A DNA stretch of 64,000 nt from Actinomycetes bacterium (GTDB lineage Bacteria > Actinomycetota > Acidimicrobiia > Acidimicrobiales > Ilumatobacteraceae). Made by a program: the position numbers and the translations under genes. Shown one piece after another: positions 41,803 through 50,382 of the stretch (positions are counted from its first letter, which is position 1; each line of letters begins with the position of its first letter). Under the pieces are notes generated by a model. It did not search any database. It worked only from the letters and a program-made list of their open reading frames with translations, and was not told where the DNA came from. The stretch lies in NCBI GenBank assembly GCA_025360105.1, contig JANYCT010000091.1:1-64000 (forward strand). The letters run 5' to 3'.

Positions 41803-42537
41803 TCAGGGCTCGTCAGCATTGAGTGAAGCGCGCCCATTTGCCGCTGTTGAGAAGTCGAATCGATAACCCATGCCCGGTTCCGTGATGAAATAGCGCGGTT
41901 GACCGGGAACCGGCTCGAGCTTCTTGCGCACGGCGGCGAGGTGCACCCGCAAATAGTTGGTCTCGAACTCGTACTGTGGCCCCCACACCTGCTGAAGCAG
42001 CTGACGTTGCGTCACCAGTCGACCATGATTGCGAACGAGATGTTCAACGATCGCCCACTCGGTCGGGGTGAGGTGCACGTCGCTGTCGCCTCTCAGCACC
42101 CGCTTGGCGACGAGGTCGACAACGAAGTCGTCGGTACGAATCGTCGCCTGCTCGGGGCCGGGCTGATGCCGGCGTAACGTGGCGCGCAATCTTGCCAGCA
42201 GCTCGTTCATGCCAAAGGGCTTCGTGACATAGTCGTCGGCCCCAGCGTCGAGCGCAGCAACTTTGTCGGCCTCGGCCTCACGCACGGACAAGATGATGAT
42301 CGGCACTGCCGTCCAACCGCGAAGACCGCGAATGACATCGATGCCATCGATACCGGGGAGTCCGAGGTCGAGCAGGACGAGATCGGGATGATGCGTCGCG
42401 GCAAGATGCAACGCCTGTTCGCCACTCTCGGCGAGGTCCACCACATAACCCCTGGCCCGCAAGTTGACATCGAGCGCGCTTCTGATCTGCGGCTCGTCGT
42501 CGACGACGAGGACGCGAGCCAGTGGTGTTGCGCTCAT
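41803..42537 (-). CDS. kdpE: KdpE-type response regulator
   Basis: OmpR/PhoB-family response regulator (244 aa) of the KdpE type. The receiver domain has the phospho-acceptor Asp57 in VLLDLGLPG, acidic residues in VVDDEP and Lys in YVTKPFGMNEL. The C-terminal winged helix contains LTPTEWAIVEHLVRNHGR and NYLRVHLAAVRKKLE. The start overlaps the kdpD stop (ATGA). No kdpFABC operon is in the window; the likely target is the divergent KimA-like gene. Confidence 0.93.
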   Translation of the reverse strand: MSATPLARVLVVDDEPQIRSALDVNLRARGYVVDLAESGEQALHLAATHHPDLVLLDLGLPGIDGIDVIRGLRGWTAVPIIILSVREAEADKVAALDAGADDYVTKPFGMNELLARLRATLRRHQPGPEQATIRTDDFVVDLVAKRVLRGDSDVHLTPTEWAIVEHLVRNHGRLVTQRQLLQQVWGPQYEFETNYLRVHLAAVRKKLEPVPGQPRYFITEPGMGYRFDFSTAANGRASLNADEP

Positions 42538-45113
42538 GAGCCAACCGGATACTGCTCGACGCGATGCTGCTCGACGCGATGCTGCTCGTCGCGATGCTGC
42601 TCGACGGGATACTGATTGATGGCCACCGCAAGTCCGATACAGAACGTGACCCCACAGCCTGGGGTGTCGTCGATCTCAAGGGTCGCACCCATCGAGTCAA
42701 TGAAGCCGCGAGCGATGGCCAAGCCGAGCCCGACGCCAGCGTCGTTGGATCGATCGCCACGACGTTGGAACGGTTCGAAGATCTGCTCGCGAGCGTCGAG
42801 GGGAATACCGGGCCCGCGGTCGATGATCCGAAGATCCACGCGGCCGTGCACCTCGGCGGCCTCGATACGCACTGTTGCGTCCGCCGGAGACCAGGCGATG
42901 GCATTGGACACGATGTTGGCGATGGCGCGCTCGAGCAGCGCCGGGTCGGCAACCACCAGTGGAAGGCTCTCGAGCACATCGATCGTGACCCGGCCTCCGG
43001 CATGCGCGGTACTCGTGAGCGCAGCTGCGACGACCTCCTCGAGGGCCACGGCGCGCTTTGCGATCACCACTGCTCCCGCCTGGAGACGGCTCATGTCGAG
43101 CAGATTGGCAACGAGGCGATCAAGGCGATCAGCGGCGCCGTCGATGTTGAGGAGCAGGCTCTCGCGATCATCGTCGGAGAACGACACATCATGCTGGAGC
43201 AGCCCGCTCACCGATGCTTTGATCGAAGCAAGCGGGGTACGCAGATCGTGTGACACGGCCTGCAGCAGCGCCGTCCGTAGCACGTTGGCCTGAGCAAGGC
43301 TGGCCACCGTCTCGGCGTCGGCGCGAAGTCTGCGGGCTTCGAGCGCCAAGGCCAACTGGTCGGCGAAGGCGCGCAGGATGGCCTCATCATCAATTCCGAT
43401 CGCACCGCCCATCAACACGAGTTGCACATCGCCGTTCGGGTCGAGCGCCAGCGAGGTGCCGTCGGCTGGCTGGGTGGGAATCGGTTCGCCCACGCCCGTA
43501 TTCACGGCCCACCCGTCGCCCGCACGTTCGAGGACCGCAGCGGCATCCAGCGCAAACGTGACCCGCAGTTGATCCACCAGTTCGGGCAGTGGATCGACGG
43601 CACCCACAAGCGTGCCCGCACTTCGCGCCAGCGCGCCGGCTTCGGCTCGTGCGCGCAGTGCCTCACGGTCCCGTGTGGCCGACCGGTTGACGAGCACGCT
43701 GACGACCACCGACACAGTCACGAACACCGACAGCATCACGATATTGCTCGATTCGCTGACCGTGAGAGTGTGATATGGCGGCACAAAGAACCAGTTGATG
43801 AGTAGAAAGGCGAGAACGGAGGCAACGAGTCCGGTTTCGAGTCCCCCGAGTGCCGCAATCACCACGACCAGACCGAGGCTCAACAGCAACTCGGAGCCGA
43901 GGCCCACATGCCCACGGATCTGCGTGAGTGCCAGTGTCATTGCGGGAAGTCCGATCAAGCACATCAACCACGCCGCAACTCGACGACGACGCGGCAACGG
44001 CGTCATTCGGGTCATTCTGGGAAGCGACGACCACGACGGAGCGATGGGTGCCTCCGGCGCAATGATGTGCACATCGATTTGATCGATGTGACGAAGCAGC
44101 GAAGTCGTCACCGAACCACGCAGTGCCTGGCTGGTCCGTGATCGCGCGCTGGCACCGAGCACCAGTTGCGTGGCCTTCTCGGCCTTCGCAAAGCCAGCGA
44201 GCGCCAAGGCAACGTCGTCGCCGACGACCTCGCGGTACCGCCCGCCCAACTCACCGAGCAGGTCTCGCTGTCGATCGAGCGCTGGCCCAGCCGCGGAATT
44301 GATCGAGCCAACATGCACACCGATGAGGTCGGCCTGCAGGCGACCAGCAATTCGGGCTGCGCGGCGAATGAGGTGTTCGCCTCCGGCTGCCCCGGTGAGC
44401 GCGACGACGACCCGCTCTCGTGTCTCCCACGAATCGGTGATGCCCTGCGCGACCAGATACGTCTGCAGTCGTTCCTCAACACGGTCGGCGACCCAGAGCA
44501 GCGCCAACTCGCGCAGCGCACCGAGGTTGCCGGGCCGAAACGCGTGCGCCATCGTTGCGTCGAGCTCGTCGGCCGGGAAGATGTTGCCGTGCGCAAGACG
44601 TCGGCGCAAAGCCTCGGGGCTCATGTCGACGAGTTCGATCTGGTCGGCGGCGCGAACAACGGAATCGGGCACCGTGTCGGTCTCGACATGGCCCGTGATC
44701 TTTGCGACGACATCGTTCAACGATTCGAGGTGCTGGACGTTCAACGTTGAGATCACGTCGCAACCGGCCTCGAGCAGCACCTCGATATCTTGCCATCGCT
44801 TTGTGTGACGCCCGCCCGGAGCATTGGTGTGGGCGATTTCGTCGACAAGCACCACATCCGGCGATCGCGCAAGCACCGCGTCGAGATCCATATCCTCCAC
44901 AGATCCGTGTGCGGTATCGAAGCACCGTCGGGCAACCGTCTCGAGATCGCGAATCCGAGACTGTGTGTTCTCTCGTGCGTGAGTCTCGACAAATCCAATG
45001 ACAACATGGGCGCCGCGTTGAGATCGTCGCCAGCCCTCGTCGAGCATCGCCACGGTCTTGCCGACGCCTGGTGCCGCACCGAGGTATATGCGCAGAACGC
45101 CCCGAGTCATCAT
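42534..45113 (-). CDS. kdpD: KdpD-type sensor histidine kinase with C-terminal pentapeptide repeats
   Basis: Potassium/turgor sensor kinase (859 aa). In order: KdpD domain with Walker A GAAPGVGKT at residues 12-20 and DEIAHTNAPG, a Usp-like domain (about 225-350), four membrane segments of DUF4118 (about 385-495), a GAF-like region, a HisKA domain with QAVSHDLRTPLASIK near residue 620, and an ATPase domain. The last 25 residues are a repeat of QHRVE-type pentapeptides encoded by a 15-bp tandem repeat. It is divergent from a KimA-like transporter, 83 bases from its preferred start. Confidence 0.93.
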   Translation of the reverse strand: MMTRGVLRIYLGAAPGVGKTVAMLDEGWRRSQRGAHVVIGFVETHARENTQSRIRDLETVARRCFDTAHGSVEDMDLDAVLARSPDVVLVDEIAHTNAPGGRHTKRWQDIEVLLEAGCDVISTLNVQHLESLNDVVAKITGHVETDTVPDSVVRAADQIELVDMSPEALRRRLAHGNIFPADELDATMAHAFRPGNLGALRELALLWVADRVEERLQTYLVAQGITDSWETRERVVVALTGAAGGEHLIRRAARIAGRLQADLIGVHVGSINSAAGPALDRQRDLLGELGGRYREVVGDDVALALAGFAKAEKATQLVLGASARSRTSQALRGSVTTSLLRHIDQIDVHIIAPEAPIAPSWSSLPRMTRMTPLPRRRRVAAWLMCLIGLPAMTLALTQIRGHVGLGSELLLSLGLVVVIAALGGLETGLVASVLAFLLINWFFVPPYHTLTVSESSNIVMLSVFVTVSVVVSVLVNRSATRDREALRARAEAGALARSAGTLVGAVDPLPELVDQLRVTFALDAAAVLERAGDGWAVNTGVGEPIPTQPADGTSLALDPNGDVQLVLMGGAIGIDDEAILRAFADQLALALEARRLRADAETVASLAQANVLRTALLQAVSHDLRTPLASIKASVSGLLQHDVSFSDDDRESLLLNIDGAADRLDRLVANLLDMSRLQAGAVVIAKRAVALEEVVAAALTSTAHAGGRVTIDVLESLPLVVADPALLERAIANIVSNAIAWSPADATVRIEAAEVHGRVDLRIIDRGPGIPLDAREQIFEPFQRRGDRSNDAGVGLGLAIARGFIDSMGATLEIDDTPGCGVTFCIGLAVAINQYPVEQHRDEQHRVEQHRVEQYPVGS
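42548..42614. repeat. Tandem repeat, 15-bp unit x4.5, inside the kdpD 3' end
   Basis: Units at 42548-42562, 42563-42577, 42578-42592 and 42593-42607, plus a seven-base partial copy. They differ by one or two bases each. They are in frame and encode the pentapeptide repeats at the KdpD C-terminus, 11 bases from the kdpE start. Confidence 0.92.
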
Positions 45114-45141
45114 CTCAGTGTGCCCCGTCGAAGCCCTCTTA

Positions 45142-45186
45142 GCGCGTTCTTGACACCGAGCGGCGGCCTCTATGCGCGGTCTTGAC
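45142..45186. promoter_or_regulatory. 13-bp direct repeat in the kdpD/kimA divergent gap (candidate KdpE sites)
   Basis: Two copies of GCGCG(T/G)TCTTGAC, at 45142-45154 and 45174-45186, match at 12 of 13 positions. They are 32 bases apart start to start, close to three helical turns. They lie between the kdpD and KimA-like starts, where a KdpE operator would be expected. The first copy also overlaps a TTGACA that could be a -35 element for the transporter gene. The regulator assignment is inference. Confidence 0.45.
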
Positions 45187-45196
45187 GGCTAGGGCC

Positions 45197-47623
45197 GTGT
45201 CAACAGAGTTCACTGAAATGGTGCTGTCCGAGAAAGAAATCTCAACGACCCCATCCAGCGAACCGATCGCGCGGCCACCCGTGGCTGCTCACCCGCAGAT
45301 CCCTGAGCCTTTGAGCTATCGGCTCAAGAACGCTGTACTCGGACCTCCTCTGCATTCCGAGCAACTGATACATGAGCGCCTCGGCAAGCCCACCGCGCTC
45401 GCTGTGTTCGCATCGGACAACCTGTCATCATGCGCCTACGCCACTGAAGAAATCCTGCGAGTACTCGTGCCCTACATCGGTCTGGCCGCGTTCACGCTCG
45501 TCACGCCGGTGACCATTGCCCTGCTCGTCGTGCTCGGGTTCCTCATCCTCTCGTACCGCCAGACCATCAAGGCCTATCCATCGGCTGGTGGCGCCTACAT
45601 CGTGACCCGCGACAACTTCGGGCTGATGCCTGCGCAGGTGGCCGGTGTAGCGCTGCTCACCGACTATGTGCTCACAGTGGCCGTCTCTGTGGCTGCCGGC
45701 AGCGACGCACTCGCTTCGGCGATCGCACCCATCGCCCCCTTTAAACACTGGGTCGCGATCGGATTCGTGATCCTGATTGCATACGGCAACCTGCGCGGCA
45801 CCAAGGAGTCGGGCAAGCTCTTTGCGGCACCCACCTACTTCTTCATCGTGAACATGCTGGTGCTGCTCACCGTGGGCACCTACAAGTTGATCTTCTCGTC
45901 GCTCCCTCAGGGACCCACCAACATCAAGGGGATGGAGGACATGGGGTCGCACACAGGCAGCGGACTGCTGATGGGCGCCACGGTCTTCATCGTGCTCAAA
46001 GCATTCGGTTCCGGCGGTGCGGCGGTAACAGGTGTCGAGGCCATCTCCAACGGCGTGCCCGCCTTCCGCGAGCCGGCCTGGAAGAACGCTCGCAGCACTC
46101 TGGTCATCATGGGCACCCTCTTAGGCATCATGTTCCTTGGGCTCTCGATCTTGGCTGCACACACCCACGCGATGCCGTACAAGGGCGGCACGCCCACCGT
46201 CATCTCCCAGGTTGGCGATTTCGTCTACGGCCGCAGCGGTGTGGGTCGCGGGTTGTTCTACCTGCTCCAGACCGGAACAATGCTGATTCTCGTACTCGCT
46301 GCGAACACAAGCTTTGCTGACTTCCCCCGACTTGCCTCATTCCACGCCGGCGACAACTTCATGCCACGTCAGTTCATGATTCGTGGACACCGGCTCGTGT
46401 TCTCCAACGGCATCATCTTCTTGGCCTCTGCCGCCATCGTCACGCTCCTTGCCACCGGTGGCGAGGTAAGTCGGCTCATCCCGCTCTATGCAATTGGTGT
46501 GTTCACTAGCTTCACGCTGTCGCAGGCCGGTATGGCAAAGCACCACATCCGCCTCAAGGAACAGGGTTGGAGATCGGGACTGGTCATCAATGGCATCGGC
46601 GCGATGCTCTCGCTCATCGTGCTCGCGATCGTCACCACAGTGAAGTTCAAAGAAGGTGCCTGGGTCATCTTGATCCTCGTGCCGATCATGGTGTTCGGTC
46701 TCGTGCGGCTCAACAAGGCCTATGTTGCCGAAGATCTCGAACTACAGGAAGACGCCAAGACGGCTGCCGAGACTCCTGCACTGCGCCGACATGAGGTCGT
46801 GGTGCTCGTCGACAAGCTCGACGTTGCCACGGCTCGCGCCATGCAGTATGCAAAGACCCTCTTCCCCGACGAACTGCGCGCTGTGCACTTCGACCTCGAT
46901 CCCTGGAAGACCGACATCCTCACCGACGCATGGCAGAAGCTGGGTTTCAACCGCTTCCCCCTCGACATCATCGAGTGCCCCGATCGGCGCGTGCCACGCG
47001 CGGCGTTGGAGTTTGCGGCGACACTGACCCGCGACAACCAGACCGAGGTGAGCGTGCTCATCCCCCGCCGCGAATACACCAAGGTCTGGCATCGCCTCCT
47101 GCACGACCGGTCGTCGGACTCCATCACTCAGGCTCTGTCTGCTCTGCCGCATTGCAACGTGACGGTCGTGCCGTATCACCTCGGTAGCTGGGTTTCGAGC
47201 GCAGCAGAAGCCGATCTGGTGCTCGCAGAGACGAGCAAACAGACGACCAATGGACATGGCAAGGAGCCATCGAAGAAGCAGCGCGCCGCAATGGCGTTCG
47301 ACGACTCTGATCTGCCTGCCAACCGGATCAGGATCAGCGAGGTCGAGCTTCGCCAGCCGACGATGGTGGCCGGTCGTGTCACTGGAATCCGTGTGCAACC
47401 GTGGGGCAACGCACCAACGCTCGAATGCACGCTCACTGACGACACCGGCAGCATCACGTTGGCATTCCTCGGGCGGCGTTCGCTCGGGGGCGTGCGTACC
47501 GGCACCATCATGTCGGTCGCAGGTGTTGCGAGTCAGCAGCATGGCGCCCGCACGATCGTCAACCCCACCTATGAACTCATCAGCGTGCCCGTGATGCCCG
47601 AGTCACCCAGTGAGCACCACTAA
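45197..47623 (+). CDS. KimA-like APC potassium transporter fused to Usp-like and OB-fold domains
   Basis: Membrane transporter (808 aa, GTG start preferred). Residues about 45-515 match the KimA (former YdaO) potassium importer group: ASDNLSSCAYATEEIL, KAYPSAGGAYIVTRDN, KAFGSGGAAVTGVEAISNG, MIRGHRLVFSNGIIFLAS and LIPLYAIGVFTSFTLSQAG. Residues about 530-665 look like a Usp-type domain. Residues about 710-795 form an OB-fold with LECTLTDDTGSITLAFLGRR, like the stand-alone OB-fold protein encoded near TrkA genes in other actinobacteria. In-frame starts at 45182 (TTG) and 45218 (ATG) are alternatives. It is divergent from kdpDE. Confidence 0.85.
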   Translation: MSTEFTEMVLSEKEISTTPSSEPIARPPVAAHPQIPEPLSYRLKNAVLGPPLHSEQLIHERLGKPTALAVFASDNLSSCAYATEEILRVLVPYIGLAAFTLVTPVTIALLVVLGFLILSYRQTIKAYPSAGGAYIVTRDNFGLMPAQVAGVALLTDYVLTVAVSVAAGSDALASAIAPIAPFKHWVAIGFVILIAYGNLRGTKESGKLFAAPTYFFIVNMLVLLTVGTYKLIFSSLPQGPTNIKGMEDMGSHTGSGLLMGATVFIVLKAFGSGGAAVTGVEAISNGVPAFREPAWKNARSTLVIMGTLLGIMFLGLSILAAHTHAMPYKGGTPTVISQVGDFVYGRSGVGRGLFYLLQTGTMLILVLAANTSFADFPRLASFHAGDNFMPRQFMIRGHRLVFSNGIIFLASAAIVTLLATGGEVSRLIPLYAIGVFTSFTLSQAGMAKHHIRLKEQGWRSGLVINGIGAMLSLIVLAIVTTVKFKEGAWVILILVPIMVFGLVRLNKAYVAEDLELQEDAKTAAETPALRRHEVVVLVDKLDVATARAMQYAKTLFPDELRAVHFDLDPWKTDILTDAWQKLGFNRFPLDIIECPDRRVPRAALEFAATLTRDNQTEVSVLIPRREYTKVWHRLLHDRSSDSITQALSALPHCNVTVVPYHLGSWVSSAAEADLVLAETSKQTTNGHGKEPSKKQRAAMAFDDSDLPANRIRISEVELRQPTMVAGRVTGIRVQPWGNAPTLECTLTDDTGSITLAFLGRRSLGGVRTGTIMSVAGVASQQHGARTIVNPTYELISVPVMPESPSEHH

Positions 47624-47686: not shown

Positions 47687-49084
47687 TCAGCCGCTACCCG
47701 ATACCGAGGTCAACAGCGCCAGCACCCCCTGAAGGTCTGCGAGTTCTGTTGCGACCAACTGGGGAGCGAGTCGAATCGCCTCGCTGGTGAGTGCCGACGA
47801 GGCAAGCGCGATGAACTTGGCGCACTGATCGTCGGCACTCATCGGGTCGTCGTTGTCACCTGGCGCAACGATGCGAGTGGCCTCAATTGCGCCGTGGTTT
47901 CGAGTCCTCACGACAACGCGCGCTGCGTAGTGGTGCGGATAGAGATCATCCAGATCTGCCTGGTGATGCACTCGCACCTTGGCCGCCTGCGCCAGACGTC
48001 GCGGATCGGTCAGTGCTTGCTCGCTGATCTCGACATGACTCGCGGCCGCCTCGCATACGATTGCAGACAACACAAACGGGAAACTGTACTGGCCGTGCTC
48101 AAGCGTGGCAGGCCGCTGATCGTGGAGGAAAAGGGCGCCGCGATGGGTATGCACATCGATGGAGACGATGTCGTCACCGGTCAGCGCATTCTCGACCATC
48201 AGGTCGGCAAGCGCACGTGCGGCAGTGTGGGTGTAACGACACGCTGCATATGGTTTGCAGTAGGTATTGGCCGTCTCGAAGACCGAGCCGAGGCTCGCAA
48301 CGAATGGATCTTCCATCGCCCCGTCTCGATGGAACGGTGTGGGCGGCAGAATCGCAAGGGTGTCGGCATCAGCTGTCACGTGCCCGTCCATGAAACCCAC
48401 CGCCGCAAGGTCGGCAGCGAAGCACGCACTGGCAGCCGACCAGCCGATGCTCTCTTTTACCATCGGCAACTGGAAGGTGGCCATCGGTGCGTGCGCCCAT
48501 GCAATCGCGATCGAGCGAGCGATCTCGTCGGTGTCGCCGCTGCGCAGCTTCATCACCGCCGCCGCTGCACCCAACGTCGCCGCAGTACCAGTGCAGTGAT
48601 AGTCGGCCGCATCGTGGCGCGGCCAGAGCAGATGGGCTGCCCGGAGCGCGATCTCATAGCCCACGACCTGCGCCGTGAGTAGCTCGGCCATTCCGACACG
48701 CGAGCCTGTGTTGCGGTCTTGCTGCGACGCGGCCTCGCTGAGTAGAGCCGAGATGATCACCGAACCAGGATGGATCGCGCCGCCCAAATAGTGACCATCA
48801 TCGAAATCGAGCGCGCTTGCGGAGACCGCCGTCGCGAACGCTGCGAGCGGTGCCGATGACGCGCCCGGCGAGCCGATGATGGGCGAGCGGCCGCCATGGG
48901 CCACCGCTGCTCGGGATGCGAGCCGCGCCGCCCGAGTGCCGGCCCCGCCCAGAATAGTGCCGATGGTGTCGCGCAGTGCGAGCTGCGCACGTTGTCTCAC
49001 GGCGCCCGGAATCGTTTCCCACGTGAGCCCGACCGCGAATGTTGCGAGGTACTCAAGCGGGTCGCTGTGAGCAGCGCTGGCCAT
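47687..49084 (-). CDS. MmgE/PrpD family protein
   Basis: Protein of 465 aa in the 2-methylcitrate dehydratase/iminodisuccinate epimerase superfamily. Family segments are LALRDTIGTILGGAGTRAAR, ALDFDDGHYLGGAIHPGSVIISALL and YCKPYAACRYTHTAARAL. No methylcitrate synthase or lyase gene is nearby, so PrpD function in propionate breakdown is not supported. It begins two bases after the stop of an FAD oxidoreductase gene, so the two probably act on the same compound. Confidence 0.9.
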   Translation of the reverse strand: MASAAHSDPLEYLATFAVGLTWETIPGAVRQRAQLALRDTIGTILGGAGTRAARLASRAAVAHGGRSPIIGSPGASSAPLAAFATAVSASALDFDDGHYLGGAIHPGSVIISALLSEAASQQDRNTGSRVGMAELLTAQVVGYEIALRAAHLLWPRHDAADYHCTGTAATLGAAAAVMKLRSGDTDEIARSIAIAWAHAPMATFQLPMVKESIGWSAASACFAADLAAVGFMDGHVTADADTLAILPPTPFHRDGAMEDPFVASLGSVFETANTYCKPYAACRYTHTAARALADLMVENALTGDDIVSIDVHTHRGALFLHDQRPATLEHGQYSFPFVLSAIVCEAAASHVEISEQALTDPRRLAQAAKVRVHHQADLDDLYPHHYAARVVVRTRNHGAIEATRIVAPGDNDDPMSADDQCAKFIALASSALTSEAIRLAPQLVATELADLQGVLALLTSVSGSG

Positions 49085-49086
49085 CT

Positions 49087-50259
49087 TCAGTGGCCCTGGA
49101 TCCCGGTGATGCCGACCAGACGACCGCGCCCGAGGTGCTCGGCTTCGAGTCCATGTGCGCGCAGCTCCGCAGGAATCTCGCCGTACCGAATGAGCGCGGC
49201 GCCCACTCGTGCCAACGCGGGAGAGATCTGGATGCCGTAGCCGCCCTGACCGACGAACCAGAAAAAACCATCGGCGTGATCATCGAAGCCAACCACGGGC
49301 GAACGGTCGCCAACGAAGCTGCGCAGGCCTGCCCACGATGAACGAACGTGGCGGATGTCGAGCGTGGTCGCATCGTTGATGTGCTCGATTGCCTGGGCAA
49401 TGTCGATCTCCTCGGGTTGCGCGTCGCACGGCACCGATGGTGTCTCATCGGCGGGCGAACAGAGATACTGCGCGCCCTCGGGCTTGATATAGAACGTGCC
49501 GCGGACATCGGCCACCAACGGCAGACCCCGATTGTCGGTGCTGTTGTCGGTTCTGGTGCCTGAATCGCCCGGGCCGGACACCATGAAGACGGTTCTGCGC
49601 AACGGATGGATCCCCACCGGTTCGACACCCGCGATCCGCGCGATGTCGTCGCACCACGCGCCGGCGGCATTGACCACGATCGGGGCCTCGATCACGTCGC
49701 CCGAGCGAGTGGTCGCGCGCCACACGTTGCTCACGAATTGCAGTTGGACGACGCCCGACGAGGTATGGATATCGCCGCCACGATTGCGAAGACCCGCGAC
49801 AAAGCCCGAGTGCACCGCAGCAACATCGATCTCGCTCGCACCGGGCTCGAGCATCGCCAGTTCGAGCCACTCCTCGCGAATCACTGGAGAAAACGTCGCC
49901 GCTTCGCTCGGCGACAGCAAACTCACGTCGGGAACGAACTCGATGACCTCGTCGCGCATCGAGCGCAGTTCGTCGGCGCCGCCATGTGGAGCGATCCATA
50001 ACAGCGGCATTGGTGACAGCAAGGGGCGTACGAACTCCTCTGGCGGGTTCTCCATGAATGCTCGGCTCGCCGTGGTGAGGAGGCGAATCACGCGGCCGCC
50101 GTAGCTCTCGAGGAAGGTGGCCGCCGAGCGGCCCGTGGTGTGAAACGCGAGCGTGCTCTCCATCTCGACCAGGCCCACTGATCGGTCTGCAGCGAGTTCG
50201 TAACCAAGAGACACTCCGGCAATGCCACCGCCGATCACGAGCACGTCGTAGCGCTTCAT
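49087..50259 (-). CDS. FAD-dependent amino-acid dehydrogenase/oxidase (DAO family)
   Basis: Flavoprotein (390 aa) of the D-amino-acid dehydrogenase (DadA/DauA-like) type. The dinucleotide fold is VLVIGGGIAGVSLGYELA from residue 5, followed by HTTGRSAATFLESYGG and, at the C-terminus, GQGGYGIQISPA. The ATG at 50259 is supported by a GGAGAG site. It is the first gene of a pair with MmgE/PrpD, two bases apart. A substrate such as a D-amino acid is inferred from the family. Confidence 0.9.
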   Translation of the reverse strand: MKRYDVLVIGGGIAGVSLGYELAADRSVGLVEMESTLAFHTTGRSAATFLESYGGRVIRLLTTASRAFMENPPEEFVRPLLSPMPLLWIAPHGGADELRSMRDEVIEFVPDVSLLSPSEAATFSPVIREEWLELAMLEPGASEIDVAAVHSGFVAGLRNRGGDIHTSSGVVQLQFVSNVWRATTRSGDVIEAPIVVNAAGAWCDDIARIAGVEPVGIHPLRRTVFMVSGPGDSGTRTDNSTDNRGLPLVADVRGTFYIKPEGAQYLCSPADETPSVPCDAQPEEIDIAQAIEHINDATTLDIRHVRSSWAGLRSFVGDRSPVVGFDDHADGFFWFVGQGGYGIQISPALARVGAALIRYGEIPAELRAHGLEAEHLGRGRLVGITGIQGH

Positions 50260-50382
50260 AGTCTCTCCTCGGAACGACTTTGGGCTCCCGAACAAACGAG
50301 AGCGTGATCGAATTGTAGAACAGCGCACCTTCGCTCGACCGGTCGTCGGGGAGCAGCCGTCGAGAGATACGGCGCGTTGTAG

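Follow-up and report, generated by a model that had tools for sequence, protein, structure and literature searches.

The window analysed here, a stretch of 64,000 nucleotides from a member of the Ilumatobacteraceae (assembly GCA_025360105.1, contig JANYCT010000091.1), contains an open reading frame that starts as a KimA-like potassium transporter and ends in an OB-fold domain of the kind that other actinobacteria encode as a separate gene. Is this one gene, and if so, what does the covalent union say about the orphan OB-fold protein? The gene probably encodes a KimA-type (KUP/APC) K+/H+ symporter carrying a covalently attached OB-fold subunit, which in actinobacterial KimA-CeoBC clusters is commonly the product of a gene of its own.

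Judged from its sequence, this is one intact gene in which a complete KimA K+/H+ symporter is followed by a fast-evolving linker and then by an OB-fold domain (Table 1). No stop codon interrupts the frame between the GTG at 45197 and the stop at 47623; a TTG at 45182 provides an alternative start, and the approximately 30 N-terminal residues are modeled with low confidence by AF2. A phmmer search aligns Bacillus subtilis KimA (6s3k) nearly end to end with residues 41-662 (E 1.4e-121), and the full-length AF2 model (pLDDT 81) adopts the KimA fold, matching KimA 8b70 in Foldseek with a TMt of 0.80 at 40% identity. The initial annotation of a KimA-like potassium transporter is thus borne out. The fusion protein shares with B. 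subtilis KimA (YdaO, a KUP/APC K+/H+ symporter; 6s3k, 8b70, 8b71) its transmembrane fold and its cytosolic domain, the K+-coordinating residues D36, Y43, T230 and Y377, and the loop residue R337; it differs in possessing an extra C-terminal OB domain.

Table 1. Features of the KimA-OB fusion gene and its divergent neighbors in the window.
Feature	Coordinates	Strand	Remarks
KimA-OB fusion gene	45197..47623	+	GTG start, 808 codons
KimA transmembrane part, residues 41-510	45317..46726	+	K+-site residues conserved
KimA's own PPAT-like cytosolic domain ('Usp-like' part), residues 525-662	46769..47182	+	KimA match
HDRS, residues 636-639	47102..47113	+	aligned to HNQS c-di-AMP contacts (579-582) of B. 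subtilis KimA
Variable linker, residues 663-706	47183..47314	+	pN/pS 0.7-1.0; AF2 confidence mostly low
OB-fold domain, residues 707-797	47315..47587	+	homologous to the standalone OB gene at ceoBC
Intergenic region kdpD/fusion, 83 bases, divergent		45114..45196		no Rfam family reaches its gathering score
kdpD, K+ sensor kinase with Usp domain, divergent neighbor	42534..45113	-	in a second kdpDE pair
kdpE-type response regulator	41803..42537	-	in a second kdpDE pair

Two soluble domains had initially been proposed beyond residue 520, one of them Usp-like. The supposed Usp-like region, however, lies inside the KimA match and corresponds to the cytosolic domain of KimA, which is described as PPAT-like (PMC10284832), and the Usp profile PF00582 finds no match in the window protein at E<=1. 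These two results rule out a Usp-like identity for residues 525-662, and because the region belongs to KimA itself, one domain has been added rather than two. A PDB match to HI1450 (E 0.061) was taken as chance.

Profile searches with the C-terminal part, negative for Usp, return a weak OB signal. Pfam tRNA_anti-codon (PF01336) matches residues 724-794 with E 0.022 and 15.2 bits when the whole protein is searched and with E 6e-4 and 20.1 bits when the OB part is searched alone, both under the gathering cut-off of 27; a standalone OB paralogue in the same genome scores 27.6 bits, above it. Structure prediction supports the OB-fold assignment more firmly than Pfam does. From a 56-row alignment AF2 predicts the domain with a mean pLDDT of 93 and a pTM of 0.82, as a five-stranded barrel that matches solved OB domains. 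The best VIA-align match is 3dm3 (Z 13.7, 90 residues, rmsd 2.1), and the Foldseek and VIA-align matches listed are mostly archaeal RPA, SSB, AspRS/AsnRS/LysRS and RecG, all of them proteins that we take to contain OB domains. By sequence, the domain matches the OB protein encoded on contig C104 of its own genome (E 3.8e-13) and has the invariant columns in common with it, which places it in a KimA-linked OB family. Outside this family the closest sequence relative is the RecG wedge OB domain; RecG-type profile matches reach at most 49 bits and come mostly from frames of about 700 amino acids read as RecG, whereas family members score at least 53.

Could two neighboring genes have been joined by a sequencing or assembly error? 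A profile made from the C-termini of 26 fused proteins retrieved 198 relatives in named genomes, the best 80 of which were kept, a set biased toward fusions because the query was itself made from fused C-termini. KimA and OB share one frame in 70 of these 80 contigs, a few of which come from the same or near-identical MAGs. Five of the other ten are cut by contig ends, L169 is cut, L168, L171 and L172 are split over two frames, and L096 is broken across three. The contigs derive from Acidimicrobiales, Acidimicrobiaceae, Ilumatobacteraceae, Microthrixaceae and unresolved Actinomycetota MAGs (mostly Acidimicrobiia), with Ca. Microthrix parvicella among them. Selection acts on the parts differently. 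Between the window gene and that of L095, pN/pS is 0.14 for the transmembrane part, 0.10 for the cytosolic domain, 1.03 for the linker and 0.28 for the OB domain; in the four other comparisons OB ranges over 0.51-0.64 and the linker over 0.71-0.93. OB is thus still constrained after fusion. The relatives are draft MAGs, and the broken frame of L096 is what an error might produce; nevertheless, single open frames in most contigs and constrained domains flanking a fast linker refute a joining artefact, whose probability we consider negligible. A plasmid search matched 109 records; among the 15 matches listed, all end at or before query residue 688 and none reaches the OB domain.

The initial annotation placed a standalone OB gene close to a trkA gene and DUF3159 in other actinobacteria, and two loci show this arrangement. 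The gene order is kdpDE-OB-DUF3159-ceoC-ceoB-kimA in L226, taken as Streptomyces-like in view of published synteny, and OB-DUF3159-ceoC-ceoB-kimA in the mycobacterial-type locus L225, near which lies a dUTPase whose nearest chain is 1mq7, presumably the mycobacterial enzyme. The genome of the window itself (G000) encodes, on C104, a canonical kimA with ceoB and ceoC, and OB is a gene of its own there, about 117 residues long; no gene that could be DUF3159 stands between it and ceoC. These canonical clusters, which we take to correspond to Rv2690c-Rv2694c, consist of the same protein families as the fusion, with homologous OB proteins and clustered genes. They differ from it in keeping KimA and OB as separate genes, and the canonical KimA of G000 is of the HNQS type whereas the window fusion is of the HD type.

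Co-occurrence across the phylum ties the OB family to KimA. Among 296 sampled genomes, OB is present in 87, KimA in 111 and both in 83 (Fisher p 2e-43, odds ratio 134, on raw counts that ignore kinship), with G125, G139, G216, G249 and G284 set aside for a best KimA match weaker than 1e-80. Genes beside kimA were among those from which the OB profile was made, and its 53-bit threshold was set at a score gap after the scores were seen; two matches below it in frames of about 140 amino acids (G077, G091) may be family members. A 588-aa frame in G139 (L205), considered as a further fusion, is an ordinary separate OB gene within a longer open frame. With up to three KimA candidates scored per genome, so that further copies may be missed, 82 OB rows have a listed KimA on their contig; in 80 of these the two are no more than 5 kb apart, as they are in 70 of 72 once ten fused rows are removed. 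KimA occurs without a family OB in 28 of the 111 KimA-positive genomes; therefore KimA can work without OB.

How often the two genes have been joined can be read from a KimA tree of 99 rows, computed with a quick method. All fused proteins but one fall into a single deep clade of 67 rows with support of 100. The same clade includes six candidate two-frame forms in which OB is adjacent or overlapping (L022, L024, L042, L168, L171, L172), two proteins cut by contig ends, and six that are not fused to OB, five of which have a separate OB gene at their loci (L056, L088-L091). The exception is found in one MAG (L125), where a canonical-clade KimA is fused to an OB that groups with the standalone clade in a quick-method OB tree of 90 columns with many unresolved forks. 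This gene stands next to a fusion of the first type (L125 934-3198 and 4629-7022, followed by kdpDE), so that, on the evidence of these trees, the MAG holds the products of two separate fusion events and its second fusion is independent. The mycobacterial-type genome G150 encodes an extra fused copy (L078 9555-12677) besides its standard cluster (L233); the copy sits inside the Acidimicrobiales fused clade on a long branch, which makes transfer likely and the placement unsure.

A single-frame fusion is present in 16 of 61 relatives. A separate OB accompanies it in eight of the nine that also encode a canonical kimA and in none of the seven that do not; G043 has two other KimA-like genes. These patterns bear on the possibility that two neighboring genes were joined by neutral accident, in which case OB would act elsewhere, perhaps on nucleic acids, and would be linked to potassium genes only incidentally. 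In favor of this, the short distance between OB genes and kimA makes fusion mechanically easy. Such an accident is nonetheless improbable given the constraint on OB after fusion, the recurrence of the fusion among relatives and in another clade, the strength of the OB-KimA co-occurrence (kinship ignored) and the want of a separate OB in the fused genomes without canonical kimA. Through co-occurrence, distance, two-frame neighbors and the second fusion, genome context gives strong backing to the earlier suggestion that the fusion is a clue tying OB to potassium uptake. On the best reading, the OB protein would belong to a KimA-CeoBC potassium importer as a subunit that here is joined to KimA.

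What stands beside the fusions varies. Within 1 kb of the best 80 loci, CeoB/CeoC are found at 39, KdpD/KdpE at 13, both at two and neither at 11, and 15 loci are too short. In the genome of the window, kdpA is located on C27 with another kdpDE (L235 13090-16358), and the window pair (41803-45113) is therefore a second one. KdpFABC as the only target of the window KdpDE was rejected on these grounds, and the pair is plausibly dedicated to the fusion, whose transcription it would probably control. Control by a ydaO-type riboswitch was likewise discarded: at gathering score, Rfam yields none upstream of the fusion and only a tRNA in the window and in L010. On the other side, an MmgE/PrpD family gene and an FAD oxidoreductase gene (47687-50328) run convergent to the fusion, with no apparent link to potassium.

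The canonical arrangement points to the RCK proteins CeoB and CeoC as partners. TrkH is the usual partner of TrkA-type proteins. It was not found in the genome of the window, and it is present in 6 of 42 KimA-positive versus 11 of 19 KimA-negative relatives (Fisher p 0.0013 over 61 relatives, kinship ignored), where KimA-positive means any match, including an OB match only in G006 and KimA fragments only in G008 and G060. In the mycobacterial 'Trk' system (CeoB/CeoC, or TrkA/TrkB), CeoB and CeoC likewise stand beside a kimA homologue; the accounts consulted describe that system as CeoB/CeoC or as two TrkA proteins and do not name OB as a subunit; Rv2690 is counted with the Trk genes (PMC12216072). 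One possible role for OB, with a probability somewhat short of even, is that of an adapter docking CeoB and CeoC onto KimA, with fusion fixing the stoichiometry. The distribution of TrkH is consistent with this role, as is the tendency of OB to occur where KimA and CeoB cluster: by the places listed, 82 of 89 OB rows have CeoB no farther than 10 kb away, and in all ten genomes (of the 28 with KimA but without OB) whose listed places were compared, KimA and CeoB are on different contigs. The adapter role fits less well with fusions located away from ceoBC, such as those of the window clade beside kdpDE. Three of the seven OB rows without a nearby CeoB are fused or adjacent KimA-OB pairs off ceoBC (G000 C22, G257, G156), and G257 (L079), a 97%-complete genome, encodes a KimA-OB fusion but has no CeoB match at E<=1e-10; CeoBC is therefore not always needed. 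Together, the fusions beside kdpDE and the G257 fusion suggest that KimA itself is at least one target of OB.

Closer examination of the residues that bind K+ and c-di-AMP in the KimA cryo-EM structures (PMC10284832) shows that the first site is kept and the second largely replaced. The HD type accounts for 85 of 89 fused rows, and in these Y43, T230 and Y377 are conserved in 85/85 and D36 in 84/85, with one gap. The c-di-AMP pocket retains H579 (85/85), R337 (76/85) and S/T582 (83/85) but has changed to E457 (82/85), D481 (79/85), R568 (77/85) and D580 (84/85). Relative to the pocket of B. subtilis KimA, fused rows thus mostly carry V457E, A481D, F568R, N580D and Q581R, and the fused clade mostly reads E457, D481, R568 and HD(R)(S/T) where canonical proteins have V, G/A, F and HNQS. 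Three of the 89 fused rows have QD instead of HD, with E457/E481/R568, and the canonical-clade fusion of L125 has the canonical pocket. The residue set of a c-di-AMP-regulated KimA (V457, A481, F568, H579-S582, R337) was accordingly not found as a whole. With these substitutions, the fused clade has probably lost c-di-AMP binding at the rebuilt pocket.

The distribution of diadenylate cyclase is less telling. The enzyme is present in the genome of the window and in 16 of 26 genomes in which OB is fused to an HD-type KimA, adjacent to it or cut off from it, and none was found in the other 10. Where an HD-type KimA is not fused to OB it occurs in one of five genomes (G088; none in G067, G082, G096 and G160), and among 20 genomes of the order or class with only canonical types, 14 typed by residues and six assumed from identity, it is found in 10 and not in 10. 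Loss of c-di-AMP was dismissed as a phyletic explanation: genomes in which no cyclase was found occur in both sets, and the pattern therefore does not separate the KimA types. Because the pocket is largely replaced and 10 of 26 genomes have no cyclase found, c-di-AMP is unlikely to be a general ligand in the fused clade.

These observations weigh on the nucleotide-sensing gate suggested in the initial annotation and, more widely, on the proposal that OB is a sensor that binds a nucleotide, c-di-AMP, another small molecule or nucleic acid and directly gates KimA, a role that is conceivable but less likely than not. The fold resembles mostly nucleic-acid-binding OB proteins (RPA, SSB, AspRS/AsnRS/LysRS, RecG), with RecG wedge domains as the closest sequence relatives outside the family. 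The domain is basic, with a charge of +3.0 in the window and a mean of +4.0 over 85 fused proteins; R13, G53-R54 and N83-P84 of the OB alignment are invariant across 41 rows; and B. subtilis KimA is itself controlled by a nucleotide (PMC10284832). The fold, however, reveals no ligand and OB domains bind proteins too, G, N and P may be invariant for structural reasons, and the genomes with HD-type KimA that have no cyclase found speak against c-di-AMP. Docking and ligand sensing appear about equally likely, and they are not exclusive.

For the KimA-CeoBC-OB importer favored here, we propose the following mechanism. The KimA part would import K+, as its conserved K+ site suggests, with its cytosolic domain serving as an allosteric sensor. 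The OB domain would hang below this domain on a flexible linker, a subunit for regulation or docking at the cytosolic face of KimA. Where OB is encoded separately, it may act together with CeoB and CeoC, for which no TrkH partner was found in the genome of the window. In the fused clade, direct c-di-AMP binding would probably have given way to control by OB, CeoBC or another ligand. A wider proposition, on which we are evenly balanced, is that actinobacterial 'Trk' systems with CeoB/CeoC but without TrkH are KimA-CeoB-CeoC-OB importers in which KimA is the missing membrane subunit and OB an obligate regulatory subunit, and that in Acidimicrobiales OB was welded to a KimA subfamily that lost canonical c-di-AMP control. 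The proposal offers a role in potassium uptake for an orphan OB-fold gene that is widespread in actinobacteria, including mycobacterial-type genomes, and KimA as a membrane partner for CeoB/CeoC in genomes without TrkH.

Published observations on the separate OB gene can be set beside this proposal. A Streptomyces OB-fold cluster is reported as syntenic with trkA, kdpD and kdpE (PMC13118837). When Mycobacterium smegmatis was evolved under rifampicin, 11 mutations arose in MSMEI_2699, an OB-fold gene, versus 1 without the drug, and 4 versus 0 in trkB (MSMEI_2701), next to 14 in rpoB among the rows listed; the discussion in that report covers trkB and mchK, not MSMEI_2699 (PMC10433840). From its annotation and gene order, MSMEI_2699 would belong to the KimA-linked OB family. 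Mutants of M. tuberculosis ceoB and of the adjacent Rv2690 survive better in rifampicin (PMC12216072), and hypoxia-type stress induces Rv2694c, which is annotated as a conserved or hypothetical protein (PMC8044303, PMC6333855). Our search, which covered mainly openly accessible literature, found no paper linking the OB protein to KimA.

Other KimA relatives depart from the architecture described above. Frames of about 750-850 amino acids, such as L231 1959-4268, L232 1066-3330 and similar genes (families f35, f41, f67, f70 and f72), have a different cytosolic tail, their match to the window protein often ending near residue 565; in L231 and L232 an OB gene lies directly upstream of kimA. Three short open reading frames (G000:C75:3365-3748, in L011; G039:C31:56-472; G045:C283:15200-15589) resemble the KimA cytosolic domain only, with 27-28% identity over about 130 residues, and are perhaps free-standing versions of the sensor domain.
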